36,962 bases of DNA from Erysipelotrichaceae bacterium (GTDB lineage: Bacteria > Bacillota_I > Bacilli_A > Erysipelotrichales > Coprobacillaceae), in the NCBI GenBank assembly GCA_021770925.1, contig JAETPY010000020.1, forward strand, positions 1-36,962, given 5' to 3'. Position 1 is the stretch's first letter; each line of letters starts with the position of its first letter. The notes beneath the pieces are model-generated. The model made no database searches and was not told the DNA's origin. It saw only the letters and a list, made by a program, of their open reading frames with translations. Both the position numbers and the translations under genes were made by a program. This document shows positions 14,606 through 32,315 of this stretch, one piece after another.

Positions 14606-14715
14606 ATTTACACCTCATGCTCTAAAGTTTATCACAATTTATTAAATGATGCTATTCATATTATCAATTACTTCCTAAATATAGCATCTAATAAAGTATA
14701 AATACTTTAAATATA
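14606..14715 (-). other. Gap between exonuclease gene and CRISPR array, with hairpins
   Basis: Downstream of the array in its direction of transcription. A small hairpin AAAGTA-TTTA-TACTTT (14694-14709) follows the last repeat almost at once, and an 8-bp inverted repeat GATGCTAT/ATAGCATC (14648-14655 with 14681-14688) has a 25-base loop. Either could end array transcription, but neither has a strong T-run. A promoter for the exonuclease gene should be here, but only weak candidates are seen, so the gene may depend on readthrough. Confidence 0.4.
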
Positions 14716-14877
14716 ATTTCAATACATCTTATGTTGTTATTAAACTGGATCGGTGTAAATCTCAATTAATCTTTTCAACACGTTTCAATACATCTTATGT
14801 TGTTATTAAACATCCATTCTAGGATATTTTTTTGCGTTGACCCAATCGTTTCAATACATCTTATGTTGTTATTAAAC
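14716..14877 (-). CRISPR. CRISPR array, type I-B, 3 repeats and 2 spacers
   Basis: Three 30-base repeats at 14716-14745, 14782-14811 and 14848-14877, separated by two unrelated 36-base spacers (14746-14781, 14812-14847). On the minus strand the repeat starts GTTTAATAACAAC and ends GATGTATTGAAAC. The ATTGAAAC end is the usual 8-base 5' tag of type I-B crRNAs, so the array is read on the minus strand like the cas genes. The repeat at 14716 differs in its last base (minus strand ...GAAAT), as expected for the leader-distal end. The leader is thus on the cas2 side. Source of the spacers cannot be told here. Confidence 0.97.
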
Positions 14878-15051: not shown

Positions 15052-15345
15052 TTATATAATTAAACTATCTTCATTTTCTACTTTTTGACTGCCTAAAATC
15101 TCTTCATCAAACGAATCTTCACTCTGTAATTTAATAATACTGACACAATCTTCTTCCTTATTTATAGCTTTTTGTAATTCTTTTTTCAATAAGATCAATT
15201 TTGAGGGAGTTATAGGTCCCTTAAATACAGAAAACTGGTAGTGAGAAAGATACTTTTTACAAATCTTAAATATTTTATTTACTCTTTTTTCACCAATATC
15301 ATAACAAACAATTACATAATTATAATTTTTTATTTTCATTAGCAT
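15052..15345 (-). CDS. cas2: CRISPR-associated endonuclease Cas2
   Basis: 97 residues, normal for Cas2. With Cas1 it forms the complex that inserts new spacers at the leader end. The ferredoxin-like fold starts with YVIVCYDIGEKRVNKIF, with the conserved aspartate at D16, and continues with HYQFSVFKGPITPSKL (the typical QxSVFxG strand). Two ATGs six bases apart are possible; the first is given, with AAAGG four bases upstream, while the second (15339) has a more usual spacing. It overlaps the end of cas1 by seven bases. Last gene of the cas operon, next to the leader. Confidence 0.95.
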   Translation of the reverse strand: MLMKIKNYNYVIVCYDIGEKRVNKIFKICKKYLSHYQFSVFKGPITPSKLILLKKELQKAINKEEDCVSIIKLQSEDSFDEEILGSQKVENEDSLII

Positions 15346-16337
15346 TTATCCTTTATCGAAAACGGTATAAAAGGCTTTCCTTCAAAAACTGTTTTAATCA
15401 ATTTATACCCATCATATTTAATTGCTGTTTTATATGATATTTTTCTTTTTAGTTTCGTATGTTGAAATTTAGTATCTAATCTATTTTCAAAAGCTTCAAT
15501 AAATATCTGCCTACCCTCTTCATTCAATAAACAGTAATTAGTTTTTTTATCGAAATGTTTTTCAACATTTAACTTTTTAGTATTTACTAATTCAAAAATA
15601 GTTTTGAAAACTATAACTGGCTTAAATACTTCACTTAAATCCAATGATAAAGAAAATCTTTGTTCTGTCGGTTCATGTAAAAACGAAATGCTTTGATTCA
15701 AATGAGTTTGATATATTGCCGAAATTGTTTTTGTATATAGCAATGTGTTTCCAAAAGAAATCAATGCATTGATTGGGTTATCCGGCGGTCTTTTAACCCT
15801 CTTGTTCATCATAAAATCTTCAGGTAATATATATTTAAAAGTACTATAAAACCTTTGCCATATTTCACCCTCAACCGCCATTATTTCTTTAATATTATTA
15901 GCATCTTGTAAACGTTTAAAAACCACCTTTCGAATCCAGTCCACAGTTTCTTTAACTTCTTTTTTACCATGTTTGTAATAATGATACAAAGTTTCATCAA
16001 TATTAACTGCTATTCCATTAACAATTGCTTTAGCAATTTCTTTTCTTTGATTGCTAAATGCTTCAACTTGTTTGATCAATAATTTACCACTAGTATATTT
16101 ATCTTTAGGATAAAAAGTTCCACTATACCCTTGATAATAATTAAAAAAATGAATAATTATATTTTTTGATGAAATAAAATCTAATAATTTAGTATTTAAC
16201 GATACTTCATTTAAACAATATATCTCTTTTACATTTTCTACTGGTAAATATATGTTTTTATTACCTTTTCTAAAACAAAGTGAATCATCTTTTCTCTTTA
16301 AATCACCCATACTAGTTATATATTTTGTACTCCCCAT
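15339..16337 (-). CDS. cas1: CRISPR-associated integrase Cas1
   Basis: 332 residues, normal for type I-B Cas1. It catalyses insertion of new spacers. The metal-binding triad is visible: E156 in MAVEGEIW, H221 in SFLHEP and E236 in DLSEVFKP. The N-terminal beta domain includes NIIIHFFNYYQGYSGTFYP, the usual dimer-interface region. The ATG at 16337 is chosen because AGGAGGTG precedes it; upstream in-frame codons overlap cas4 and are not needed. It follows cas4 by 13 bases. Confidence 0.96.
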   Translation of the reverse strand: MGSTKYITSMGDLKRKDDSLCFRKGNKNIYLPVENVKEIYCLNEVSLNTKLLDFISSKNIIIHFFNYYQGYSGTFYPKDKYTSGKLLIKQVEAFSNQRKEIAKAIVNGIAVNIDETLYHYYKHGKKEVKETVDWIRKVVFKRLQDANNIKEIMAVEGEIWQRFYSTFKYILPEDFMMNKRVKRPPDNPINALISFGNTLLYTKTISAIYQTHLNQSISFLHEPTEQRFSLSLDLSEVFKPVIVFKTIFELVNTKKLNVEKHFDKKTNYCLLNEEGRQIFIEAFENRLDTKFQHTKLKRKISYKTAIKYDGYKLIKTVFEGKPFIPFSIKDKC

Positions 16338-16350
16338 AATAACACCTCCT

Positions 16351-16845
16351 CTATATATAACAATAAGCATAATATGCACATTTTTTGCACTTGCTCTCAT
16401 TTAAAACTGGTGGTATTTGACCAGCTTCTAATAATTTCTTAATCTCTATAACCATTTTATTTAATTTTTGTTCTTCCAAGTCACTTAATTCTACTTCAAT
16501 AAAAGTTTTATTTTGTTTATTTTTTTCAATTACTTCTATTCTACCTTTTCTATTAATTCCTTTCGATTTTAATATCTTAAGATAATACAAAAGCTGCCAC
16601 TTAGCGGCTATCAAGTCAGCATCAGATTTTTTTGTTTCGATTAAGTATTTAGCCGTTAATTTATCTAATCTTACATTATCTATTGCTATTTCTGCATTTT
16701 TATTATCGCTATATTTTTGTTCATGCAAAGCTTTCCCAATTTTTACATCTTCACTTTCATCTTCTAAATTAAGACGATTACCATGTAAATAACATTGTCT
16801 TTTACAATGAAAATAATAATTTATCAATGTCCCATTTATTTGCAT
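16351..16845 (-). CDS. cas4: CRISPR-associated exonuclease Cas4
   Basis: 164 residues, normal Cas4 size. It trims prespacers and selects those with a correct PAM. RecB-family nuclease features: H41 in GKALHE, E70 and K72 in IETKKS, and a QLLYYL (Q84) helix. The Fe-S cluster cysteines are C14/C18 near the N-terminus and C153, C156, C162 at the end (CKKCAYYAYC). Its start is ATG at 16845, seven bases after AGGTGG; a GTG six bases upstream is too close to that site. The ribosome site overlaps the cas3 stop codon. Confidence 0.94.
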   Translation of the reverse strand: MQINGTLINYYFHCKRQCYLHGNRLNLEDESEDVKIGKALHEQKYSDNKNAEIAIDNVRLDKLTAKYLIETKKSDADLIAAKWQLLYYLKILKSKGINRKGRIEVIEKNKQNKTFIEVELSDLEEQKLNKMVIEIKKLLEAGQIPPVLNESKCKKCAYYAYCYI

Positions 16846-16856
16846 AATCACACCAC

Positions 16857-19349
16857 CTATATAAACAATTCATTTTCAGTTTCAAACAAACCAGTATTTA
16901 ATTTGCCATCTAAAATATAATTATCACCATCTTCAATATAGAAAATATCACCAATTTGCTCTTCATAATCAAATTGACAGTTACTATCAACTTGATACAT
17001 AAAATAATTCATTTTACTTTTTACAACCGATAATTGATAAATCTTTTTAGAATAATCCATTTCATTATCCTGCAATAATTCTACATACTGCTTCCATATC
17101 AAATTACCATCATATTCATGACCATCAAAATCCTTTATCTTTCGCCCTAAAAAAATCGTTACTCGATCTCTTGTATCTAAAATTAATTCCATCCGTTTAC
17201 TTACTTCTTTATAATTTAAGCAGGCAGCAGCCTCCCTAAAAAAGTCTCCAACATTACCATCATTATATTCTTTAGCCTTATGTTTTAAAACTGTGAGTAA
17301 TTTTTGATAATATTGATTAAAACTCTTATTTAATAATACAGCTTTCATTTCATCATTTAATAATGTTAAATTTTCGGCAACTCTTTCATCCTTTTTATAA
17401 ATATTTGCAGCTTTATTTAAATTAAAGAAATACACTACCCCATCTTTTAAACAAGAACGATTTATTCTCCCCATAAACTGTTCTTCACTATCTAGTTTTG
17501 AAATATCTTTATAACCAATATCCATATCAATATCAACACCCGCTTCAACTACCTGTGTTGCTACTAAAATAAGATGATTACAAGTATTAACCTTATCTAT
17601 TATTATTTCTCTTTCCAAAATACTGTCAAAACCGCTAATAAATAAAACTTCACAATCAAGATTTTCATTTTTAAGACGCCGATAAAATTTCTCAGCACTT
17701 CTTCTTACAATAAACTCTAACATAATTTTTTTCTTTAGTTTATTCATTTTCAAAACATGCTCAAATAACACTTCTTCAACATTTTTTACTTCCAACAAAC
17801 TATAATCAATCTTTACCCGTTCTTTAAAAATAGGATTTAAAAAATATTTTTTACAATCTTTAATTAATGATACCGAATTACTATCATCATTTGTAAGTAC
17901 TTCTAAATTAGGTAAAGTAGCTGACATAATAATTATTTTCATATTTAAGATTCTCGCGTATTCCTTTAAAAAGATAATTATTTCATTCCAGCGTTCAATT
18001 CGATAATTTTGGATTTCATCTAAAACAATGACAGTATTAACAAATTGATAAAAACCAAATGCTGATTCACGGTTATTGCCAAATAGTGTATCAAACAAAC
18101 TAACATGCGTAGTTAAAATAATTGGATAATTCAAAAACTGACGGTCTAATAAAGCCTTTTGATATTTATTAGGTTTATTTTCATCAATCTTAATTGGCGT
18201 TGTTGAATTAACAACTGCAACATTATTTAAAATACTGCTATGATCAAATATTTTATTAAGTGAAGCAATATTTTGTTCTACTAATGTATTAAAAGGATAA
18301 ACATAGACAATTTTGTTTAAATCATTATTTTTTTCAATTAAACGTAAACTTAAGTTTATCGCTGTATTGCTTTTACCACTGCCGGTTGGTGCTTCCAAAT
18401 AAAAAATATTTTTATCATAATTTTCTATTAGAGTTTTTTCTGCTTCTAAAAATATCTCAGTTCTTAATTCGTTGATACTATTTTCTAAAATCTGCTTTTT
18501 TCTAATTTTAGTTATCAGCTTGGTGTTATCATATTGTTTAATCAGTTCTTTAAAATCAAAATCATTTATCACATTAATGTCTTTTTGATTATTATAAAAT
18601 TCACTTGTTGCATAGTAATCGCATGTAACTAAAATAGAATATAAAAGTCTAACATAAGCATATAAATCAATTTGTTTATTAAGCTCACATTTTTTTAATT
18701 TTTTAAATAAACCATTTCTCCCATTCTTTTTTAAAGGAACAAAATTAAAATCTACATTAAACTGACTTACAAATTCATCGCTATTTACCCAATCTATAAT
18801 TCTTTTTTCTAATTTATCATCACTATCAAATTTATCAATAAAGTAAGTTCTAAAATCATCAATCTTACTATGATGCCTAGAAATTACAAAAGCATTTATA
18901 TAAGTAATTCTTTTCAATATTTTATAATCATTTTTATCGAGTGAACTTATTTTATTTAGAAAATATCCCAAATAAATATATGCTGATAATATCGAGTGTT
19001 TAGAATCTAAGTTTTGTGGCGGTGTCATATAATTCATAGCACGATTATTCATCTTATCATTTTGAAAAATAGGATTTATTTTACCATTATCATGGAAAAC
19101 AATCGTATTAATAAAAAGTTCATTAAACACTTCTTTTCCTTCATCAGATAAATCACTAACTAAATTATTTTTAAAAGATACCATTATTTTATCTAATCTT
19201 TTTAATTCAAAAATTTCTTTTAAATATTTTATACACAATTGAATATGTTCAACAATCGTCTCGTGCTGATCATCTTTAACATGTCCATAACAATTATTAA
19301 TATTTTTTATTAATTGTTCTAGTGACACCACATATTTATCAATATTCAT
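16857..19349 (-). CDS. cas3: CRISPR-associated helicase/nuclease Cas3 (HD + SF2)
   Basis: 830 residues. Cas3 is recruited by Cascade to unwind and degrade target DNA. The HD nuclease domain comes first (H35, then HD at 86-87 in VFHDNGK, with RHHSK near 168). The SF2 helicase follows: APTGSGKS near 318 (Walker A), DEIQ near 440 (a variant of DEAD/DEVH), SATLP, and an arginine-finger motif EEQFMGRINRS. HD plus helicase in one chain is the usual arrangement. The ATG at 19349 is chosen for AAGGAG before it; the longer frame overlaps an intergenic hairpin. A gap of 37 bases with a terminator-like hairpin parts it from cas5. Confidence 0.95.
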   Translation of the reverse strand: MNIDKYVVSLEQLIKNINNCYGHVKDDQHETIVEHIQLCIKYLKEIFELKRLDKIMVSFKNNLVSDLSDEGKEVFNELFINTIVFHDNGKINPIFQNDKMNNRAMNYMTPPQNLDSKHSILSAYIYLGYFLNKISSLDKNDYKILKRITYINAFVISRHHSKIDDFRTYFIDKFDSDDKLEKRIIDWVNSDEFVSQFNVDFNFVPLKKNGRNGLFKKLKKCELNKQIDLYAYVRLLYSILVTCDYYATSEFYNNQKDINVINDFDFKELIKQYDNTKLITKIRKKQILENSINELRTEIFLEAEKTLIENYDKNIFYLEAPTGSGKSNTAINLSLRLIEKNNDLNKIVYVYPFNTLVEQNIASLNKIFDHSSILNNVAVVNSTTPIKIDENKPNKYQKALLDRQFLNYPIILTTHVSLFDTLFGNNRESAFGFYQFVNTVIVLDEIQNYRIERWNEIIIFLKEYARILNMKIIIMSATLPNLEVLTNDDSNSVSLIKDCKKYFLNPIFKERVKIDYSLLEVKNVEEVLFEHVLKMNKLKKKIMLEFIVRRSAEKFYRRLKNENLDCEVLFISGFDSILEREIIIDKVNTCNHLILVATQVVEAGVDIDMDIGYKDISKLDSEEQFMGRINRSCLKDGVVYFFNLNKAANIYKKDERVAENLTLLNDEMKAVLLNKSFNQYYQKLLTVLKHKAKEYNDGNVGDFFREAAACLNYKEVSKRMELILDTRDRVTIFLGRKIKDFDGHEYDGNLIWKQYVELLQDNEMDYSKKIYQLSVVKSKMNYFMYQVDSNCQFDYEEQIGDIFYIEDGDNYILDGKLNTGLFETENELFI

Positions 19350-19361
19350 AGTTTTCTCCTT

Positions 19362-19386
19362 CAATAAAACCCGCAATAAAGCGGGT
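19362..19386 (-). terminator. Weak terminator/attenuator inside the cas operon
   Basis: Minus strand ACCCGC, loop TTTATT, GCGGGT, then TTTATTG. The GC-rich 6-bp stem followed by a short T-run begins directly after the cas5 stop and ends before the cas3 ribosome site. It looks like a partial intrinsic terminator. Confidence 0.55.
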
Positions 19387-20088
19387 CTAATAAAATATTA
19401 TATTTTTACTATCAAAAGTATATACAGTTCCTTCATCCATCAGTAAATCCGTATGAATAAAAGTCATATATTCATATAATCCTGTTTTTTCATTTAATCC
19501 AATTGGTAAACTCTCCTGATACTTATAAAAATCCATATCAATATCCTCAGCTTCTTCAAAACTTTTCCTAGGAAACAAACAATCAATTCTTTCTTCATCA
19601 ATATTTCTTTCATCCAATTCAACGACACAAACATCGCTTATTACTGCAGGATGATCATTTTTTCCTAAATAAGGAATATAAATACACTTATGATTAATCA
19701 ATGAATCAGCAATTTTTTTAGCTTCCTCATTATCTAAAAGTACAATAATGTCCCATTTGGGATACTCTAACCACTGTTCTTTAACAATCAGATTTCCGCC
19801 CTGCTGTTTTGAAGCATATCCAACTGAATTATTAAAATACTGAATCTTTTTAGAAAAATAACCCTTTTTATTTAAAGGAATAATAGATACTTTTATATCT
19901 TTTAGTTTTCGATAAAACTCTGGAAGTTCTTTAGTATCGTTATAACCCTGATACCCTAAAACAGCCCCAAACATTCCTAGTAACGCTACTTTATGAATAT
20001 TACCAAATGTAAAATAATAATAGGTATTGACTTCAGGTCGCTTAAAAAAAGCTGTTTTACCACTTAAAGTAAATTTAAGTGCCTGCAT
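19387..20088 (-). CDS. cas5: Cascade subunit Cas5 (type I-B)
   Basis: 233 residues, normal for type I-B Cas5. It caps the 5' tag of the crRNA in Cascade. The N-terminal RRM strand MQALKFTLSGKTAFFKRPEV and the following YYYFTFGNIHKVALLGMFGAVLGY region are typical of Cas5 (conserved P/T.. and the 'HK..llGilGailG' helix). No catalytic residues are expected, as Cas6 is separate. GAGGTG six bases before ATG. Its start is three bases from the cas7 stop. Confidence 0.93.
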   Translation of the reverse strand: MQALKFTLSGKTAFFKRPEVNTYYYFTFGNIHKVALLGMFGAVLGYQGYNDTKELPEFYRKLKDIKVSIIPLNKKGYFSKKIQYFNNSVGYASKQQGGNLIVKEQWLEYPKWDIIVLLDNEEAKKIADSLINHKCIYIPYLGKNDHPAVISDVCVVELDERNIDEERIDCLFPRKSFEEAEDIDMDFYKYQESLPIGLNEKTGLYEYMTFIHTDLLMDEGTVYTFDSKNIIFY

Positions 20089-20091
20089 AAA

Positions 20092-21027
20092 TTACACCTC
20101 ATTTTTAGTAATAATATGATATATCTTAGCATTTTTTAAATTAGATTCCAAAACTGTTGTTTCAGGATTATAATATATTTCAATATTTAAGATATCATCA
20201 AGTTCATTTAACATATTACATTCAATTTTAATTTTGTTAATATCGGTTTTTTCAAAACTAATATATTCACTTAAATTTGGTAAATATGTATCTAATTTAG
20301 TTTCGACAAATAAAGCAAATTCATTTTCACACCCTTCTTTAGCATTAGAAGAAAATGAAGTAGCTGCTACTAAAGCTGTTCGTTTAAAATTTTGATAGTC
20401 TGCTTCGGTATACCCATCAGTTACCTTTAATGATACTAGTTCTTTATAGGCATTAGGATTGATTGAAAAAGGATAAAAATAATGCGCTTCATTACTAACG
20501 ATCTTCGTTCCTAATGTAGAATTTTTAGCTTCCTCATCTTTTTCTTTATCTTTAGAAGCATCTCTAAACGGTGATAAAATTTGCTGTTCTTCAGCAACGC
20601 TGCCATCGTATTTATTAATTCCCTGACCAAACTGAACAGCACCAGTAATTGAAATATTATTCTTAGCTTCCGCAAAAGTAGCTCCAAAGTTTTTAACATC
20701 TACCGCACTCATTAAATTAGTGAAAACTTCTTTAGCATCTTTACATTTTGATAAATCTTCAACATCAAATAACTTTTCATAACGTTCTTTTAATGAATTA
20801 GGTACTAATGTTACACTACCATCTTTTTGTGGTGAAAATTTCATTGATTTTATGTATAACACTTTTTTACCTTCACTATCCCACATCTTTTTCATTGGAT
20901 ATTTTAAAGCTTTGTCACTGCCAAAAACCGTTCCATCTGATAAACTCTTAGGATAACCGGAAAAATCCGCATTCCAATTAGCCATTATTGAGGCAATTCC
21001 AATAACTCCATATACTCTTTTATCCAT
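20092..21027 (-). CDS. cas7: Cascade backbone subunit Cas7 (type I-B, Csh2/DevR-like)
   Basis: 311 residues. Several copies form the helical crRNA-binding backbone of Cascade. The opening RVYGVIGIASIMANWNADF with GSDKALKYPMKKMW is the characteristic Cas7 RRM entry and thumb region. A lysine/glutamate-rich insertion (ASKDKEKDEEAKN, about residues 158-170) interrupts the core and is probably a flexible loop. ATG at 21027 is chosen for AAAGGGG before it; a start 21 bases upstream has no ribosome site. It overlaps cas8b by eight bases. Confidence 0.94.
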   Translation of the reverse strand: MDKRVYGVIGIASIMANWNADFSGYPKSLSDGTVFGSDKALKYPMKKMWDSEGKKVLYIKSMKFSPQKDGSVTLVPNSLKERYEKLFDVEDLSKCKDAKEVFTNLMSAVDVKNFGATFAEAKNNISITGAVQFGQGINKYDGSVAEEQQILSPFRDASKDKEKDEEAKNSTLGTKIVSNEAHYFYPFSINPNAYKELVSLKVTDGYTEADYQNFKRTALVAATSFSSNAKEGCENEFALFVETKLDTYLPNLSEYISFEKTDINKIKIECNMLNELDDILNIEIYYNPETTVLESNLKNAKIYHIITKNEV

Positions 21028-22738
21028 TTTCTTTTTCCCCTTTTTCATAAATTAAATTTTCACCAAGATAACCTGCCATCAACATACTTTGATCGATTTT
21101 CTTGACATCCATATATTCCATGACCATTGCAAATAAATAATTAAAGCGCGTTTTCCCTACAAATAGATCATAATTATAACGACGATAAAATTGTTCCAGC
21201 TTGATTTTCAAAACCTTATCATTTCTAATAACGATAAATTGATTAATAATATCCTGGGTTTTATTCTTTGTTTTACTTTTTGATTGCAAGTAAGCAATAG
21301 CTTGGCCAACAGCAAAACTATATTCCAAATCATCTTCAATTTTCATTTGATGTTCGGCATTTATCTTAGTTCGTAAAACATCTCGTATATCTTCCATATC
21401 ATTCTCCTTTTGACTAAAATACTTATTTAACGCAAAATATAAATTCATTTGTTTCTTCGCACTGTTTAGATAACCCATTTTGATTGAATATTTAGTTATA
21501 TCCAAGGCAGCTTTTAACAAAACATTTCCAATATTTTCAACTTTTCCTGCATATACCCAAGCATGAATTGCTTCCCTACAAGCCAAAAGATTCTTTTTAT
21601 AAATACTATCAACGCCTTTGAGATCATCAGGAGCTGTAAAATAATTATTTTTTAAATATTTAGAAAATAATATCTCATTAATAAGATTTTCAACATCTGT
21701 TCTTTTTTCATATTCTTTATAACATTCATCATCCAAAGAACCAATAACATTTCTATAATTAAATAAAGGTTTTAAAAAAACTTTATAATCCGTAACAACA
21801 TCCATATAATGAATTTCTAATTCTTTACCTTTTTTTGTTTTAACAACGATCCCATCAAAACCTTTTTCTATATTTTTAATATTATTTAAACAATAAATTC
21901 TTTTATCATCATCTTCATCACTACTAAAATAAATATTAGTCTTACCTGCATTTGCCTGATTCATCAAAAAATCAAAAAAATGTTTTTCAAGTAAAGCTTC
22001 TTTTAAAGATAACATGTAAGGAATCTTATTCATTCTCGTTTTATTTTCCAAAAATGGTTTTTTAGAATTTAACTGCATATTATAATTCGGTAAGCCATAA
22101 ACATCATTACCATCATAAATATTATAATCATTACAATTAAATATCTTCGTTAAAGTATAACGATTTCCCTCATTAATATATAACTGATCATCATCCTCAA
22201 AAAAGACCTTTAAATAATCTTTTTCACTATAATCAACTTTATCTAAATTATATACATTTTCAATCAACCATTGTTTATTTCTTAGTAACTTCTCCTGATC
22301 AATTTCACCAATATCATCAGCTACAAAATTATACATTTGTAAGTCTTTACCTTTATATTTCTCCTGGGGATTCTCTAAAGACTTAAAATATTTTTCAGTT
22401 GCTTCATTTATTCTATCTTTATCATTTAATTTTTCTTTTTTTACAAAGTATGATAAATAATTATTTGAAAGAATTAATCTAAATGGCAAATCTAAAGTTT
22501 TTTGTGTATTTATTATTTGACTTTGATAATCATAAAAACATAATTTTCGATATGTTTCATCATCAGGCTTTTCAATCAAACAATGATCCTTTTTTGAATA
22601 CTTGATTTTTTCAACCTGATAACTGCCATCACTATGTACCAAAACATAATCACCATTAGTTAAAACCATCGTCTCCAAAATCAAATTTGGGTTATTTTTA
22701 AGTTCCTGACTAAAAATTTCTAGACACTCCTCCAGCAT
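21020..22738 (-). CDS. cas8b: Cascade large subunit Cas8b (Csh1-like)
   Basis: 572 residues. Large subunit that reads the PAM and recruits Cas3. The segment RLILSNNYLSYFVKKEKL near residues 87-104 matches the Csh1/Cas8b signature (SNNYLSxFVKK), and ENPQEKYKG follows. The long C-terminal helical part (from about 400) is like the small-subunit region carried by Cas8b. No zinc-finger CxxC pairs are seen, unlike Cst1-type Cas8. Start: ATG at 22738, seven bases after AGGAGG; a GTG one codon upstream is nearer. Translationally linked to cas7 by overlap. Confidence 0.92.
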   Translation of the reverse strand: MLEECLEIFSQELKNNPNLILETMVLTNGDYVLVHSDGSYQVEKIKYSKKDHCLIEKPDDETYRKLCFYDYQSQIINTQKTLDLPFRLILSNNYLSYFVKKEKLNDKDRINEATEKYFKSLENPQEKYKGKDLQMYNFVADDIGEIDQEKLLRNKQWLIENVYNLDKVDYSEKDYLKVFFEDDDQLYINEGNRYTLTKIFNCNDYNIYDGNDVYGLPNYNMQLNSKKPFLENKTRMNKIPYMLSLKEALLEKHFFDFLMNQANAGKTNIYFSSDEDDDKRIYCLNNIKNIEKGFDGIVVKTKKGKELEIHYMDVVTDYKVFLKPLFNYRNVIGSLDDECYKEYEKRTDVENLINEILFSKYLKNNYFTAPDDLKGVDSIYKKNLLACREAIHAWVYAGKVENIGNVLLKAALDITKYSIKMGYLNSAKKQMNLYFALNKYFSQKENDMEDIRDVLRTKINAEHQMKIEDDLEYSFAVGQAIAYLQSKSKTKNKTQDIINQFIVIRNDKVLKIKLEQFYRRYNYDLFVGKTRFNYLFAMVMEYMDVKKIDQSMLMAGYLGENLIYEKGEKENG

Positions 22739-22752
22739 CACATTACCTCCTT

Positions 22753-23445
22753 TTAATAATAGGAATAATTAACAAATCCAAAACCCCGCGCATTCATCTC
22801 TAAAAGTCCAGCTCCAATGGCCAGCATCGCTAATTTTTGAGCATTTTCATTTTCAGCAATCTCTAGTTCAATCATGTCTCCTAGTATTTTAATCCCCTTG
22901 TACATACGAGAAACAGGAACTTTATTTTTAAAATTGATATGATAATATAACTGAAAATCTTCATTCATCTTACCACCAGTAATATCATTATATTTTTTAA
23001 TTAAATTAATTTTTAAACGCTTTTCAAATTCTTCTACTTTGATACTATTTTTCCAATAACCATGTTCAGTTTTTAAAATTATTGGTGTTAAGGTATATAA
23101 TTTTTTAACTATTTTAGGTTTTATGATCTTGACTTCTCCTGTTAATCCTTGTATTTCTTTAGTACGATTTTTCACTAACGTTTCATACAAATATTCCGCC
23201 AGCTTATAATCAACAGTTCTAATTCTAAACACATAAGCATTATCCTTTCGATATATTCCATTTTTGGCCAGCGGATAAAGACTATCAAAAGTATAAAATT
23301 TGTACATATTTGCTTCATGAATATTTAAAAATTCATTTTCTTTTACCAAAACACTATCTATGAAATACGCAAGATAACTTTGTATTTCTTCTATTTTTAT
23401 ATCTTCTAATAAATATACTTTTATTTTCAATTCATATACATTCAT
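22753..23445 (-). CDS. cas6: CRISPR RNA endoribonuclease Cas6
   Basis: 230 residues. It cuts the array transcript within repeats to give crRNAs that start with ATTGAAAC. The C-terminal glycine-rich loop is clear: AIGAGLLEMNARGFGFVNY, ending four residues before the C-terminus. H43 (NIHEAN) is a candidate catalytic histidine, in the usual position for Cas6. ATG at 23445 is chosen because GGGGAG precedes it; a TTG 15 bases upstream lies in that ribosome site. First gene of the operon, 15 bases before cas8b. Confidence 0.93.
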   Translation of the reverse strand: MNVYELKIKVYLLEDIKIEEIQSYLAYFIDSVLVKENEFLNIHEANMYKFYTFDSLYPLAKNGIYRKDNAYVFRIRTVDYKLAEYLYETLVKNRTKEIQGLTGEVKIIKPKIVKKLYTLTPIILKTEHGYWKNSIKVEEFEKRLKINLIKKYNDITGGKMNEDFQLYYHINFKNKVPVSRMYKGIKILGDMIELEIAENENAQKLAMLAIGAGLLEMNARGFGFVNYSYY

Positions 23446-23478
23446 TCCTGTGCTCCCCAATCTATTTCTATAAGAATT

Positions 23479-23830: not shown

Positions 23831-23858
23831 TTGATTTTTTAATATATTATGTTATAAT
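23831..23858 (+). promoter_or_regulatory. Promoter of the broken peptidase gene, with cre-like core downstream
   Basis: TTGATT (23831-23836), 16-base spacer ending TGT, TATAAT (23853-23858). Just downstream (23871-23878) is the core AAGCGCTT, in the initially transcribed region where CcpA sites often repress; the full 14-base match to cre has three mismatches. Confidence 0.6.
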
Positions 23859-23888
23859 ACAAATTATAGAAAGCGCTTTTTATAATAA

Positions 23889-24959
23889 ATAATAAGAAAA
23901 ATAAAAAAACTTCTGTTATTTACATTAACATTTTGTTTAGCTTGTTGTATGGTGACAATCCAAAATGTTAATGCATCAACTGTTTTACCTAATAGCTATT
24001 TAAATGATATTAAAGAACAGGTTTGTCTTCTAAATGAAGAAATCAATATCTCTAAATTAAATTTTAAAGATTACAAAATACTTTTAGATATTGAAAATAA
24101 TGAATCCTATGCATTAATTGTTACTGATAATGATGGCTATATTATTTCTGGAATTAAAAACAAAACAATTTCTGAGTGTTCACTAACTCAAAATTCAAAT
24201 CCTTATAAAAATAATATGAGTAATACATTATTATATTATGGTCCAATGAATTATCTTTATAAAAACAATGAATCGATTGTAGATATTTATTCTAATCAAA
24301 TAATTTCTTCTAATCTTCGTATGAGCAATGCAACCGATAATGATATAGAAAATTTGAAAAAATTAAATTCTGAATTCTTAAATAATTGTACGCCTATTTC
24401 TGTGAAAACCCATGCATCTGAAAGCTGGATTGGTGCACCCGCATCAAGATTTTCTAGATACAATGGTTCATCTTGGCGTAACGAAAAAAGTGTTTGTGGA
24501 CCAATTGCTGCCGCTATTATGTTTGCATATTTTGACGATTATGTTAGATTTGATGTAATCCCTGATAATGTACGTAAACAAAACAGCAGCTCACCAGGAA
24601 CACTTATTACAAAAATGGTAGCAGAAACCCCTCTTGCTACAACTACAGTACCTTCAACTCTTGCCACTGGAATATGAGGTTTTATTCAAAAATATAGTCC
24701 TAATAAATCTATCAAAGCAACAAGTATGAGTACAAATCCTTTTTCTACAGTTAAAAACAGCTGTAATTCAAGTCGCCCAATTTGTGTAGGATTATTAGAT
24801 TCGCTTGGTTCATCTTATAAAAACCATTGAGTTACTGCATATCAATATAAAGAAACAGGTGTATTTGTAGGATATTATAAATGCATTGATAATTGGGGTA
24901 ATTATAATAAAGAAATCACTAGTTCCTGGGCCATGGGTGCAGTATCTATCGGATATTAA
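23889..24959 (+). pseudogene. Secreted papain/C39-like cysteine peptidase, interrupted by two in-frame UGA codons
   Basis: One reading frame runs from about 23889 to TAA at 24957-24959 with only two stops, TGA at 24675-24677 and 24828-24830. The first residues (RKIKKLLLFTLTF, then NVNAS) form a signal peptide, but the frame there begins with ATA codons and lacks ATG and ribosome site; the first ATG (23949) lies inside the signal peptide. The catalytic cysteine is in SVCGPIAAAIMFAYF near 24497, the histidine in KNH-(TGA)-VTAYQY, and a papain-like Asn-Trp-Gly in IDNWGNY. Homologues usually read HWV at the second site, so TGA stands where Trp is expected; the first, GI-(TGA)-GF, also suits Trp. 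Four other Trp codons here are TGG. Most simply a decayed gene (three G-to-A changes); UGA readthrough is the alternative. Confidence 0.7.
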
Positions 24960-25004
24960 AATTAATTAAAATTTATGGAATTGAATAAACAAGGAAAATC
25001 ATTT

Positions 25005-25064
25005 AGAAAGGAGATTACAATTCCGCTGCATATATCAATGACAGTTTCCTTGTCAAAAAAATGA
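25005..25064 (+). promoter_or_regulatory. Orphan ribosome site and short leader frame before the lipoprotein gene
   Basis: GAAAGGAG at 25006-25013 is a strong ribosome site but lies 48 bases before the lipoprotein ATG, which has no such site of its own. A short frame from ATG at 25038 ends in TGA overlapping that ATG (ATGA at 25061-25064), which would allow translational coupling. Confidence 0.35.
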
Positions 25065-25642
25065 AAAAGATAAACAAAATTAGTATTGTTATAATACTTT
25101 TAATTCTATGTTCAGCATGCGGTAGACCTCCTGGATTAACTGCTAGAATGGGTCGTAATATTAATTGTGAATCTGAATTAGGGAATTTTTCAAAATATAT
25201 AAAATTGGATAAACTTCCAACTGCTATGGATAATGAAATAAAAGTCCATGGCAAAAAGGTTGGTATACATTGTGGTAATATGTTTACAATAACTAGTGAG
25301 CTGACAGATTACTATACTAATTATAGAATGGTTAATGCTGCAGGTACTTTAGGAGATACTTTTGAGTATGGCGCATATACTGTTAATATAAAATATTATT
25401 TATATGATGATATGTTAATTATCGATAGTGATACTGACATGCCAAAAGACGTAGCGAGTTCTGGCCTAATGGCAGAATATTACATAAAAATTGACGATAA
25501 GTATCTAAGTGGTTTTGAGCATGGTTTTGGTCTAAAAAAAAGATACAAGAATTTCAACAAGTTATCTAAAACATACTTGGAAAAAATGAACTTATTAATA
25601 ATTGAAGAACTTGATACTTATACTAATCTTAAAACTATTTAA
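25061..25642 (+). CDS. Putative lipoprotein, function unknown
   Basis: 193 residues. A basic start (MKKINK), a hydrophobic core (ISIVIILLILC) and a lipobox-like CSAC ending at C20 indicate export and lipid attachment; the residue three before the cysteine is Cys instead of the usual Leu, so the lipobox is not ideal. The mature part is polar with mixed strands (FEYGAYTVNIKYYLYDDMLIIDSD) and matches no family I know. It follows the broken peptidase gene by about 100 bases on the same strand and may share its transcript. The start lacks a close ribosome site. A terminator follows about 90 bases downstream. Confidence 0.65.
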   Translation: MKKINKISIVIILLILCSACGRPPGLTARMGRNINCESELGNFSKYIKLDKLPTAMDNEIKVHGKKVGIHCGNMFTITSELTDYYTNYRMVNAAGTLGDTFEYGAYTVNIKYYLYDDMLIIDSDTDMPKDVASSGLMAEYYIKIDDKYLSGFEHGFGLKKRYKNFNKLSKTYLEKMNLLIIEELDTYTNLKTI

Positions 25643-25910: not shown

Positions 25911-27110
25911 TCAATAATCAATAGTATGCAGTTCAACGATCTCCTGCTCTAATTTACAGTCATTTTCCAACATATAATCAATGACTTTATCATGAAACCG
26001 TTCTTTTAATTTAATTAATCTTTTTCGATCATTAGCAGTCAATCTTTTTGTATATTCTTGATACTTTTGTAATATATCTATATTCATGGCAATGGTTTTA
26101 AAAGGAATACTGGTCTTTTCAATTAAATGCAAATAAATATAAAATCCCCCAGCATCAATATCGCCAAAATGATAATAATTAAGATTCGTTTTAAATTGAT
26201 AGATTTTCAACAGCAGCTCTCTTCTTAATGCGTTATGATAACCACCTAAATAGATTATTAAAGTATTGTCAACAGCAGTATCATAAAATGAAGTTAAGTT
26301 TTCAATCGTTAAAACATTAACATCTCTAATTTCTAAAATTTTTAATAATTTAATATTTTCAGTAGTTAAAGAAAAGGGACTATTAAGTTTACCAATATCA
26401 ATAATCTGATCATTTAAACTGATTTTGATTTGACCGTTTAAATATATAAAACCAGGATTTTTAATAACATTAAAATGTCCAAACATTTCATCTTCATTTT
26501 GAAAGCTTTCACTATGATAATCAGTAACAATATTGACAAGCTTACTTTTTATATTTTCTAATCGTTTCGAATCTTTCAAGACCATTAAAGAAAACTTACG
26601 AAATGAGATTTCTTTCTTTTGGTTTACAAGTGCTTGTAAGACAATAAATATATCTTTAATCTCTTTAATATTTTCAATATTTAAATATCTGCTTATTGAT
26701 TGATAGTTTTCTATCCTTTTTATCATTTCATTTTTAAAACGATCCAGCCAGTCTATTGAAAATGAAATCTTTTTTAAATAATCGACTGTTTCTAAGCGAT
26801 AATCAGCTAAATAAATTCGATTTATTAACCGATATGCCTCTTTTATATAATTATCATCTAATACTAGTGCTATTTCATCAATTTCCTCATCATTAATAGT
26901 AATATCAAGGATATGTAAGTTATTTAAATCATGGCAAGCTTCATCAATCAATAAACGCTGTGAATAATAATCACTATTATCATATTTTGGAAAAAGCTTT
27001 CGCAATTTAACTTTTATCTGCAGGTTTAAACAAGAACCTTGTTTAGATAAAACACTGCGCTCATACTTTTCCAAAAGATTAGTTAATATCTTTGTTGCAT
27101 ATTTATTCAT
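25911..27110 (-). CDS. jetD: Wadjet subunit JetD (TOPRIM nuclease)
   Basis: 399 residues. JetD is the DNA-cutting subunit of Wadjet: once JetABC has extruded a small circular DNA, JetD cleaves it. The C-terminal TOPRIM domain is visible: LTIENLTSFYD with E270, the IIYLGGYHN strand and turn, and the metal-binding HFGDIDAGGFY with D317 and D319. The N-terminal 250 residues are a helical arm/winged-helix region that docks JetC. The ATG at 27110 overlaps jetC by eight bases, with GAGG nine bases upstream. It ends in TGA, the only clear TGA stop in the window, with TAG six sense codons further on. Confidence 0.88.
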   Translation of the reverse strand: MNKYATKILTNLLEKYERSVLSKQGSCLNLQIKVKLRKLFPKYDNSDYYSQRLLIDEACHDLNNLHILDITINDEEIDEIALVLDDNYIKEAYRLINRIYLADYRLETVDYLKKISFSIDWLDRFKNEMIKRIENYQSISRYLNIENIKEIKDIFIVLQALVNQKKEISFRKFSLMVLKDSKRLENIKSKLVNIVTDYHSESFQNEDEMFGHFNVIKNPGFIYLNGQIKISLNDQIIDIGKLNSPFSLTTENIKLLKILEIRDVNVLTIENLTSFYDTAVDNTLIIYLGGYHNALRRELLLKIYQFKTNLNYYHFGDIDAGGFYIYLHLIEKTSIPFKTIAMNIDILQKYQEYTKRLTANDRKRLIKLKERFHDKVIDYMLENDCKLEQEIVELHTIDY

Positions 27111-30100
27111 GAATAATAGCCTCAACAAAAGAATTATCTCCAGATTTAATAATTGCTAGTGTGGTATCAACATAAGGCATGATAGTACTAGCACGATCCG
27201 GTGGTGCCGCTAAAATAATCTGCACATTAAGTTCATTATAAAATCTCATCATTGCCTGGATTCTCGTTTCATCCATATTATTAAAAGCTTCATCAAACAA
27301 AACAACGCAGCCTGAATCTTCATTAAGACGATTTTTAATTAACTGTTCAAAACTTGAGGCAATGACAACATAAAATGGAGTTTGTGTTTCCCCGCCCGAT
27401 TTTTCACGATTGACTTTAGAAAATTTAGTAAAATCCCCATTTTCATGCAAAATTTTAATATCATAATCCAAATACTCACGATAATCAGTATATTTTTGTA
27501 ATAACTTTTCACCACTTTCATCTTCGCCTAATAAAGCTATTTGATCAAACAGTTCATCCATTACAGCACGATTTTCTTTTGACAAAGTCGTTACAAATAA
27601 ATCATCACTGTTATACTGCTGATTAGAAGCAATAATATCATAATAACGTCGATAATCTTTACGTCTGCTAGGATTAACCTCGAATTCATAACTATCACCA
27701 TTAAAGTTTTTATTTTGAAGGCCCTTGTTTAATTCTTTAATGTCTTTTTTAGCCTGATTGATTTTTTCATACAATCTCGATATAAATGACTCTTGAAATG
27801 TCTGTTCACATTTTCTTCTGGCATTTCGAACATCATCTTGGCGTTTAACAATTTCAATATCTCTTAATTTATAGTATAACTGCAAATAAACATCAATATT
27901 ATCAATTGTTTCTCCATAACCAACTTTAAATTCATGATTAAAAGCTTTCATTGCCCATTCAATATTCGTACTTTCCTTATTAGTCTGTCCATCTAATTCA
28001 CGAATTTTCATAACTAAGCTGTTTTGGATCGATGTATAATTATGACCAAAGCGTTTATAATATCTTTTTTTAATTGTCATAATTGCTTCATCAATAATTT
28101 CTGGTGCCTTAGGTAGTTTTTCTAATTCAGTTTCAATTTCTCTTTTAGTTTTATTATTTTGGTCAATACTTGCTTTTTCATTGATAAGATTGCGCTGTTT
28201 TAAATCATAGTTATCTTGTGCTTTTTGATATCTTTGTTTAACTTGATCTAACTGCTGAATAATGGCAATAATTGAATCATCTTGGATAATTTCCTTTAAA
28301 CGTTTTTCAATCTCATTAATATTATTTTGTAAATCATGATATTCATCGATTAAACTAGTAGAACCAACCAAAAAATCTATTTGTGATTTATCCAAAATCT
28401 TTAGATTCCGATTTATTTCATGATATTGTTTACTTTTGACTTTGATTTCATCTTGAATTTGATTTAATTGTTCTTCAATCATTCCTATTTGAATCTTCAA
28501 AGCTTCTAATCCAATATATGGCTGTTGATACACCTTAGGATTAAGCGCTCTAACAGTATAATTATTATAAACCATACAAGTTTTTGTAATTGCTGTTTTA
28601 TGCATTGGCAGCTGTTCAACTGTATCGACACACTTAACTCGATTTAACAGCATATTAGCATATCTTTTAGCATAACTGTTAAAACTTGTAACAAAATTAG
28701 CTAGACTATCTTCTAAAGTATCTTGATATTTATCTAACTTAGCAACATCAACGATCCCAACACCAAAAATCCCATGACTATTTTTATACTGTTCATATAT
28801 TTGCATTGCTTTTGTAAAATATTCAGGATCAATAATAATATCAAAGCGCTGGGTATTTAAATATCCTTCGATTGCATTACGCCATGATTCATCGGTTATC
28901 TCTAAATATTCACAAAGGGGCTTTACATCTATTTTCTTTTGATAATAATTAGCTAACTGTTCTTTTAAAATTTTAATAAGCTCGGTTATTTCTTTACGAT
29001 AAAAAAAGCGATTACTTGAAAGAAGATTATGTTGATCAACTAATTCATTTTGTTTAGCCTGCATCTTTTTTAAATCCTGCTCTAAAAGAATTTTCTTCTC
29101 ACTAAAATCTGCTCGTTTACTTACTAAATCATTTTTTATTTCAAAAAGATGTTCATTTAAATATTCACTATCATAATCATTATTATTAATATTATTGATA
29201 AAAGTTTCTTTGATTCGAAGTTGTTTTAAAACTGTTGTTTCTTGTTTTAATTTATTAACATAATCGCGATATCTAATTTCAAGCTGTTTTAATTGAGTCT
29301 GCTTAGTTTTTAAATTGCTTTCAAGTTCTTTCTTTAAACGATATCCTTCATTATTGTCTAAAATATTTTCTAAACTAAGAACTTCCTTTTGAAGACTTTC
29401 ACTCTTTTCTTTAGCACTAATCAATAACTGCTCTAAATCTTTAACAACTAATTCACTTTTTAAAACAGCTTTTTCAATCACATCTCTTTGATAATACAAA
29501 CTATCAAGATAAATATGATCTTTAGCATCCTGATGATTCTTTAGTTGAATAACTATTTTTTGATAATTTTGATAAAAAACATCTATCTTTTCTAAAGCTG
29601 CCAATCGATTTTGCTGATCTTTCAAAACATTACCTAAATTACGATATGCTCGTATATTATTACGAAGATCATCAATCTTAACAGGATCTTCATTCAAAAG
29701 AAAGTCGAAAATAAAGTTATACACATGATTGATTGGTTTAAAAGCCAATGCTCGTGGAATCAATTCAAAGTATTTTTTTGATACTCCTAAAGCCTGACGA
29801 AATAAGCCTGGCACTTTACTTTTTTTATCAGCAAAATTAGCTTGAATCTTTTTACTAGTTAAAAAGCGCCTAAATTCATTACGATTATAAACATGATTTC
29901 CTTTAATAAATAAATCATCATCTATTTTTTGATCAATCACTTGAAAAAATAATTCCTTTTTTATATTTGATTTACTTAACTCCAAAACAACCCCTAATAA
30001 TTGACTCCGTTTTGTCGCTTCATCAAAATATTCCAAAACAATATATGAAACCACATCACCCATTCTTAAATATTCTTTTCCTTCACGCCCTAATTTACCG

Positions 30101-30312
30101 CGAATATAACCCTCAATATTTCTTTTACCTGAATCATTGGCTGCACTATTAAACTTAGCTTTTCCAGCTGTTAAAATATACTGTAAAGCATCTAGTAATG
30201 TTGATTTACCAGTTCCATTTTCACCAGTAATAACTACATTATTTTTAATTTCGATTGTTTGATTATTAAATAAATGCCAATTAATTATCTTCATCTTGAC
30301 TAGCTTTTTCAC
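27103..30312 (-). CDS. jetC: Wadjet SMC-like ATPase JetC (MukB-like)
   Basis: About 1069 residues. An SMC/MukB-like loop-extruding ATPase, the motor of the plasmid-cleaving Wadjet complex. Walker A is GENGTGKST (30-38); the C-terminal head has the signature SGGETQTPFYVVIASS and Walker B CVVLFDEAFNNMDE. Between them lie long coiled-coil stretches (about 230-470 and 640-900) around a hinge-like globular part near 480-620. The start is taken as GTG at 30312 because GGGGTGA lies upstream and MKKLVKMKIINW fits the family N-terminus; ATG at 30294 is an alternative. It overlaps jetB by 32 bases. Confidence 0.9.
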   Translation of the reverse strand: MKKLVKMKIINWHLFNNQTIEIKNNVVITGENGTGKSTLLDALQYILTAGKAKFNSAANDSGKRNIEGYIRGKLGREGKEYLRMGDVVSYIVLEYFDEATKRSQLLGVVLELSKSNIKKELFFQVIDQKIDDDLFIKGNHVYNRNEFRRFLTSKKIQANFADKKSKVPGLFRQALGVSKKYFELIPRALAFKPINHVYNFIFDFLLNEDPVKIDDLRNNIRAYRNLGNVLKDQQNRLAALEKIDVFYQNYQKIVIQLKNHQDAKDHIYLDSLYYQRDVIEKAVLKSELVVKDLEQLLISAKEKSESLQKEVLSLENILDNNEGYRLKKELESNLKTKQTQLKQLEIRYRDYVNKLKQETTVLKQLRIKETFINNINNNDYDSEYLNEHLFEIKNDLVSKRADFSEKKILLEQDLKKMQAKQNELVDQHNLLSSNRFFYRKEITELIKILKEQLANYYQKKIDVKPLCEYLEITDESWRNAIEGYLNTQRFDIIIDPEYFTKAMQIYEQYKNSHGIFGVGIVDVAKLDKYQDTLEDSLANFVTSFNSYAKRYANMLLNRVKCVDTVEQLPMHKTAITKTCMVYNNYTVRALNPKVYQQPYIGLEALKIQIGMIEEQLNQIQDEIKVKSKQYHEINRNLKILDKSQIDFLVGSTSLIDEYHDLQNNINEIEKRLKEIIQDDSIIAIIQQLDQVKQRYQKAQDNYDLKQRNLINEKASIDQNNKTKREIETELEKLPKAPEIIDEAIMTIKKRYYKRFGHNYTSIQNSLVMKIRELDGQTNKESTNIEWAMKAFNHEFKVGYGETIDNIDVYLQLYYKLRDIEIVKRQDDVRNARRKCEQTFQESFISRLYEKINQAKKDIKELNKGLQNKNFNGDSYEFEVNPSRRKDYRRYYDIIASNQQYNSDDLFVTTLSKENRAVMDELFDQIALLGEDESGEKLLQKYTDYREYLDYDIKILHENGDFTKFSKVNREKSGGETQTPFYVVIASSFEQLIKNRLNEDSGCVVLFDEAFNNMDETRIQAMMRFYNELNVQIILAAPPDRASTIMPYVDTTLAIIKSGDNSFVEAIIHE

Positions 30313-30922
30313 TACTATCACCCCGCTTTTGATAATCTAGCAAAATATTATCAATTTGTTCTAATCGTTCAACTGGTAAGACATATGTAATAGTAGGATA
30401 AATAATAATAACTGCATTATCATCATCACTATTACCAGTTAAATCTATAATATTATATCTTTTTAAAACCCTAAACACTTCCTTAAGTTCACTTTTATTG
30501 ATTCGTTTATCAAAAATACCAGTTGCATTAATAGCATCATGAAGCTGTTGTAAAGTAACTGTAATATTATCAAGTAAAGATACTTCCTGCATTTTTTGAT
30601 AATAAAATCGCCGTAACAATAACAAAATAACTGACTCATTTTTTTTAAAAGAATAGCGATTGTAATTTTGTAAATTATATAAATTTAATACTTTATCAAC
30701 ATTATGATTTTCCAAGACATAATCCATCAAAGCAAAATAACTAGCATAAACCTCAAAATCAGCAATAATTTTATAATAATCATCAAGATCACGGGGCCGA
30801 CTGGCACAAATATAATTATAACTTAATAGTTTATTAGTTAATCTTGAAAATTCTTCTTTTTTACTATCACTTAAACGAATATATTTATTGTAAAAAGTTG
30901 TTGCCCTCTGGTATTTATCCAT
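30281..30922 (-). CDS. jetB: Wadjet kleisin-partner subunit JetB
   Basis: 213 residues. Position between jetA and jetC, size and helical/winged-helix composition match JetB, the MukE-like (KITE) subunit that binds the JetA kleisin. A mid-part YSFKKNESVILLLLRRFYYQ followed by LHDAINATGIFDKRINKSELKEVFRVLKRYNII resembles the tandem winged helices of these proteins. It ends in an acidic tail. AAAGGAG lies seven bases before ATG, which overlaps the jetA stop by eight bases. The call depends mainly on operon context. Confidence 0.8.
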   Translation of the reverse strand: MDKYQRATTFYNKYIRLSDSKKEEFSRLTNKLLSYNYICASRPRDLDDYYKIIADFEVYASYFALMDYVLENHNVDKVLNLYNLQNYNRYSFKKNESVILLLLRRFYYQKMQEVSLLDNITVTLQQLHDAINATGIFDKRINKSELKEVFRVLKRYNIIDLTGNSDDDNAVIIIYPTITYVLPVERLEQIDNILLDYQKRGDSSEKASQDEDN

Positions 30923-32273
30923 CTGCTTTCTCCTTTACTCTAAAATCTTTGAAACGATAATTATTAACTATTACTTCATTATCTAATGGTTCAACTTCAT
31001 ATTTTGTCCCATATGTAAAGCCATATAAATAAATTAATACTAAAGTCGCTAAATCTTCATTACTGTTAATTGGCAATGAGGACCCTAAAAAACTTCCCTT
31101 CTGTTTTAACAGCATTAAAACCTTATCTTCAATATATTTGTGTGAATAGTTTTTAGATTTTATAATTTGTTTTAGAGCCTTTTCTTTTAAAGTTTCGTCA
31201 AGAACTGCTGGCTTTTCTAATTGTGACTTAACCGAACTAGTATAATTACGAGGAACATATAAAGAATCTCTAGATATAAAACTATTTAAATACAAATTTC
31301 CCAATTCACTTACATCTTTACCGCTAGCAATTGCTTTAATAATATCATTGATCTTTCCTTCAATATCTTTTTGATTATTTAACAAAAAAGTAATCCGATT
31401 AATTGCTGATTCTATAAACCTATTATTTTTACTATCAATTTCCTGCATTATTTCTTCAATATGTTCAAAAGCATTAATAATATAATCCTTTTGATTCAAC
31501 AGCAGCTCTAAAGCCTCCTGGTATCCAAGATCCTTACGTTCCATAATATTACGAACAATTATATCAAGATACTTTTCATTACTAATAATATTTTCAATGT
31601 TATTAATAATTCGCTGGCGATACTTGGAAGGATTATCGTAAGTAGTAAGATTATAATAAGCTCGATCAACTATTTTAGTTTGATAATCTTGTAACAATGA
31701 GCTTAACAACGCCTCTAAATCATCTTTAATTCCTTCGTCTAATAAATTTTGAATATATTTCTTTATATTAGAATTCAAATTTTTTAATTTATTGGCTAGA
31801 TCTTTAGTATTTTCATATCCCGTTTCAAAAACCAAATCTCCACGATTAACATCAAAAGTATTGAATGACATAAAAATATTATAAATCAAACCAGAATATT
31901 CCCCATTATCACTACCGCCATCAAGACTGAATAAATTTTCTAAAACCCTAATACTATAATCTTCAAAAGTGATAAATATATCATAATTTTCACCAGTTTC
32001 TTCGTTAACCCATCCACATTCCTTTAACCTTTTTAAAATATATAAAGCTTTATCACGAGAATTGTTCAAATCCTCATCGCTTTTTAAAAAGGTAACATGA
32101 TTTTCAAAATAATCCTGAAAAATCAATAAAACTTGTTCTTTAGTAGATGAAAAAGATAAATCACTTTTAAACGAATGATAAACTAAATATAAACAATCAG
32201 AGATTATCCGCTTATTATCTCCAATAAAAATATTAAAAAAATTATTAGGTAAGATATCAAAAATATTATACAT
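30915..32273 (-). CDS. jetA: Wadjet kleisin subunit JetA
   Basis: 452 residues, first gene of the Wadjet operon. JetA is the MukF-like kleisin linking the JetC heads. The N-terminal MYNIFDILPNNFFNIFIGDNK and a long helical middle match, to my recollection, the JetA family found in Clostridia-type (type III) Wadjet loci; the subtype is not verified. A winged-helix-like segment is near residues 360-400 (LKEKALKQIIKSKNYSHKYIE). The ATG at 32273 is chosen because AAAGGA precedes it; a longer frame would include the promoter. Confidence 0.82.
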   Translation of the reverse strand: MYNIFDILPNNFFNIFIGDNKRIISDCLYLVYHSFKSDLSFSSTKEQVLLIFQDYFENHVTFLKSDEDLNNSRDKALYILKRLKECGWVNEETGENYDIFITFEDYSIRVLENLFSLDGGSDNGEYSGLIYNIFMSFNTFDVNRGDLVFETGYENTKDLANKLKNLNSNIKKYIQNLLDEGIKDDLEALLSSLLQDYQTKIVDRAYYNLTTYDNPSKYRQRIINNIENIISNEKYLDIIVRNIMERKDLGYQEALELLLNQKDYIINAFEHIEEIMQEIDSKNNRFIESAINRITFLLNNQKDIEGKINDIIKAIASGKDVSELGNLYLNSFISRDSLYVPRNYTSSVKSQLEKPAVLDETLKEKALKQIIKSKNYSHKYIEDKVLMLLKQKGSFLGSSLPINSNEDLATLVLIYLYGFTYGTKYEVEPLDNEVIVNNYRFKDFRVKEKADG

Positions 32274-32300
32274 TATCTCTATCCTTTCAACAAAAGTACC

Positions 32301-32309
32301 CTTATTATA
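32301..32309 (-). promoter_or_regulatory. Wadjet operon promoter (extended -10)
   Basis: Minus strand TGTTATAAT fits the extended -10 (TATAAT at 32304-32309), about 31 bases before jetA. The -35 region is poor. Confidence 0.5.
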
Positions 32310-32315
32310 ACACAT

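Follow-up and report, generated by a model that had tools for sequence, protein, structure and literature searches.

A TGA-interrupted frame in a Thomasclavelia species as a very probable recent pseudogene of a secreted cysteine peptidase

The frame at positions 23889-24959 (+ strand) of the DNA analyzed here, a whole contig of 36,962 nucleotides ("the window"), is very probably the remnant of a gene for a secreted, papain-like (C39-like) cysteine peptidase, a pseudogene that was inactivated recently; the bacterium is a species of Thomasclavelia. The contig is one of 176 in a draft genome of 2.88 Mb that is 89% complete. An earlier note on this DNA had left three readings of the frame and its two in-frame TGA codons side by side: recent decay, arrival of the gene from an organism in which UGA encodes Trp, or reading of UGA as Trp in the bacterium itself. 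Only the first is supported. The frame is an ordinary pseudogene rather than a variant-code gene, and relatives have lost the same gene by other routes. Homology, synteny, the lesions, and the differing lesions in relatives are all documented; the window's own lesions are known from one genome of the species.

The frame and its intact orthologue

Direct reading gives a frame of 357 codons with TGA at 24675 and 24828 (codons 263 and 314), as had been reported. The N-terminus resembles a signal peptide and opens with ATA ATA, directly downstream of a TAA; the first ATG does not occur before codon 21. Alignment confirms that the Cys, His, and Asn-Trp-Gly motifs are present in that order, and the catalytic residues C203 and H313 are invariant across the 10 aligned sequences. 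This conservation of the motifs and of most of the frame fits recent decay, but it would also fit a gene in use.

A scan of genome contigs located a full 356-codon gene at 1143-2213 of a MAG contig, L048, that is closely related to T. cocleata. This gene opens with ATG behind an AAAGGG ribosome site and runs without an internal stop. Because the window frame is collinear with it without gaps and 79% identical over the whole protein length, the frame is evidently genuine by homology and not a product of chance. One syntenic intact copy of this sort settles a case in which a TGA-interrupted frame mimics recoding.

The intact orthologue passes the cut-off of the Pfam family Peptidase_C39_2 (PF13529) with 29.1 bits (cut-off 24), and the order of its motifs (Cys-Gly, His-Trp-Val, Asp/Asn-Trp-Gly) is that of the family. 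In contrast, the window copy cannot be translated whole, and when its TGA codons are taken as Trp it scores 16.4 bits, below the cut-off. Modeled with AlphaFold (pLDDT 75.7), the intact protein bears a weak resemblance to papain-like proteases; its best PDB matches, themselves weak, are to cathepsin S, with an E of 2.5e-3, and to staphopain, with a TM of 0.55 when scaled by target length. The ancestral protein would probably have been an active peptidase. Elsewhere in the window's genome lies an intact, distant peptidase paralogue of 25% identity, L002 (G000:C51:15081-15860, - strand).

Lesions in the window and in its relatives

The first lesion is the loss of the translation start (23875..23903, + strand). 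Alignments and a codon table show that the region holding the relative's ribosome site is absent, and that each of its three Met codons is either absent or Ile. Where the window reads ATA ATA ... ATA, both T. cocleata-type copies, L048 and that of the type strain DSM 1551, read ATG ATG ... ATG behind a ribosome site, while the window is without one. The ATA ATA of the window is accordingly no start, and these copies bear out the suggestion that ATG had become ATA in a gene without a ribosome site. Since another relative, G007, keeps an ATG with GGG ahead of it, the loss would most simply fall on the branch leading to the window.

The two internal stops differ in what they replace. At the first (24675..24677, + strand), an alignment of 10 sequences shows Trp in none of the nine homologues, which carry Arg, Asn, or Leu instead; at the second (24828..24830, + strand), directly after the catalytic His, Trp is found in all nine. 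The expectation of Trp at the second site was therefore sound, and homologues are without Trp at the first position only. The codon in relatives is TGG at the second site and, in both T. cocleata-type copies, CGA at the first, a C/T difference. Since the first TGA stands opposite CGA, it did not arise by a change of TGG to TGA, which removes both one of the two supposed "Trp" sites and the idea that all three changes were G-to-A. The nucleotide differences that separate the window from L048 (unpolarised) are of mixed types.

Errors of sequencing or assembly might be suspected in a draft of 176 contigs that is 89% complete. However, at least four separate disabling differences (the start, the ribosome site, and the two stops) would all need to be wrong, and the neighboring genes are intact; this explanation is very unlikely.

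The same locus has been broken by lesions of other kinds in relatives. In T. cocleata DSM 1551 the syntenic gene has suffered a net deletion of 5 bases, which throws it out of frame near codon 55; because of this gap, a protein search in T. cocleata returned the gene in two pieces. In G007, whose flanks are 87-93% identical to those of the window, the peptidase gene is reduced to its two ends, and the remnant has a TAA at another Trp position. In G006 the downstream lipoprotein gene follows a similar upstream element with no peptidase gene in between. Loss of the gene is tolerated, and the gene is dispensable in the genus Thomasclavelia.

Comparison of the window with the intact L048 copy gives a dN/dS of 0.24 for the peptidase frame and 0.40 for the neighboring lipoprotein gene. 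Over the last 38 codons, the 3' part that G007 has kept, there is a single window-specific change, which is silent, as against 16 specific to G007. Given both results, most of the divergence accumulated under selection and the window copy decayed late, although the event is not exactly dated.

The following history is proposed. An ancestral peptidase gene would have lain upstream of the small lipoprotein gene, probably within one operon. In the lineage of the window the start region would then have been lost and two sense codons turned into TGA, so that peptidase would no longer be made. Recency of the decay, together with a position between a shared promoter and an intact lipoprotein gene, is the probable reason why the stretch is still there.

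The reading of UGA in this genome

If UGA were read at least partly as Trp here, the peptidase gene might be functional, and two observations speak for such reading: the invariant Trp at the second site, and a mismatch in the only tRNA-Trp(CCA) found, of a type that is reported to increase readthrough of UGA in E. coli (PMC13092985). However, the first site is not a Trp position (its nearest copies encode Arg with CGA), and the start and the ribosome site are gone. The release factor gene prfB (RF2), which the earlier note had proposed to check together with the tRNAs, is intact (496.8 bits; cut-off 370). Among the tRNA genes found in this 89% complete genome, the sole tRNA-Trp has the anticodon CCA, and none has UCA.

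TGA is also used as an ordinary stop. Within an 865-kb sample of the 2.88-Mb genome, it ends 50 of the 552 open reading frames of at least 150 codons (~9%). Past these terminal TGA codons the next stop follows at a median of 4 codons, and no run of 60 or more open codons is present (0/50). TGA stop usage in an earlier 396-kb sample agrees; there, the longest open run after a TGA stop (51 codons) is a fragment of the pseudogene itself. The tRNA mismatch, moreover, is found throughout the genus and in much of the family, and this feature occurs in thousands of standard-code genomes (PMC13092985). Taken together, reading of UGA as Trp in a functional peptidase gene is highly improbable.

Nine other TGA-split frames were found in the 865 kb, none of which supports Trp. 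Seven shadow longer genes of the opposite strand, and L050:6878-7627 looks like two unrelated frames. The ninth, L067:13703-14428 (G000:C51, - strand), is a truncated tyrosine recombinase; at the position of its TGA, homologues carry Tyr or Arg instead of Trp.

Published screens have found UGA=Trp in the Mycoplasmatales, the Entomoplasmatales, and some symbionts, including insect symbionts (PMC8629427). The frame resembles such code 4 genes in its low GC content, in its two in-frame TGA codons, and in having TGA opposite Trp at one of the two sites, which might suggest a gene acquired from a Mycoplasma-like donor. It differs in that the genome keeps RF2, the tRNA genes found include no tRNA-Trp(UCA), TGA is a stop, the first site is not Trp, and the start is lost; in addition, the frame itself contains four TGG codons and only two TGA. 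Acquisition from a code 4 organism is refuted, to the point that its probability is negligible, because syntenic orthologues exist in the same genus: the nearest copies occupy the same locus, with TGG and CGA at the TGA sites. Selenocysteine would account for in-frame stops that are exclusively TGA. However, homologues are without Cys at either site, and no Rfam match to tRNA-Sec over the cut-off was found in the genome, where the sub-threshold matches that were typed are ordinary tRNAs. The chance that the frame encodes a selenoprotein is thus minute. An ordinary pseudogene remains the preferred reading.

A separate matter is whether UGA leaks at a low level. The tRNA-Trp(CCA) gene at L018:1498-1571 (G000:C1:17048-17121, - strand) has a mismatch, C27.U43, at the top pair of the anticodon stem (positions counted by hand), and the tRNA was recovered from eight members of the genus, always identical and with C27.U43. 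Most of the other genomes examined likewise have a mismatch at this position (C.U, U.U, A.C, or U.C), and four have A-U or G.U. A 2026 study reports such 4-bp anticodon stems in ~9% of the tRNA-Trp(CCA) genes of bacteria and as the sole form in ~6.5% of standard-code genomes, and associates them with lower use of UGA; overexpression of a 4-bp-stem tRNA-Trp raises UGA readthrough in E. coli, with C27.U43 cited as competent (PMC13092985). The tRNA of the window's genome thus carries a mismatch that is reported to permit readthrough in E. coli. It differs from the published case in having A24, which that study sets apart (PMC13092985), paired with U11, and in being genus-wide, and nothing in this genome points to reassignment of UGA. 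By analogy, the family's mismatched-stem tRNA might allow some UGA codons to be read as Trp at a low level, which is unlikely. Such leakage would soften new TGA mutations throughout the genus. It could not rescue the peptidase gene, which would still be dead, because there is no start and the first site is not a Trp position. A family in which tRNA-Trp(CCA) stems are mostly mismatched, yet UGA stops are normal, provides a test bed for the leakage claim.

The neighborhood of the pseudogene

A candidate promoter, TTGATT-16-TATAAT with TG before the second hexamer, can be proposed at 23831..23858 (+ strand), in a scan that found such sites no more often than chance; by eye, G006 has a similar promoter-like element, there ahead of only the lipoprotein gene. 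The small lipoprotein-like gene (25061..25642, + strand) is an intact open frame, conserved in T. cocleata, G006, and G007, and is the probable operon partner of the peptidase gene. Between the two (24976-25063) is a short frame whose terminal TGA overlaps the lipoprotein ATG, and within the same interval a ribosome-site-like AAAGGAG falls in the loop that is closed by a conserved pairing of GGAATTG with CAATTCC. In L048 the short frame continues into the lipoprotein. The short frame is possibly a leader that couples translation. No Rfam match to an RNA element was obtained in or around the peptidase gene.

Since a complete Wadjet (JetABCD) anti-plasmid system is present at 25911-32315 and a CRISPR-cas locus on the other side, the pseudogene is flanked by two defense systems. 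The type I-B cas set of the latter (15052-23460: Cas2, Cas1, Cas3, Cas5b, Cas7b, Cas8b, and Cas6) adjoins a repeat unit at 14715-14877 that consists of three 31-nt copies with a spacing of 66.
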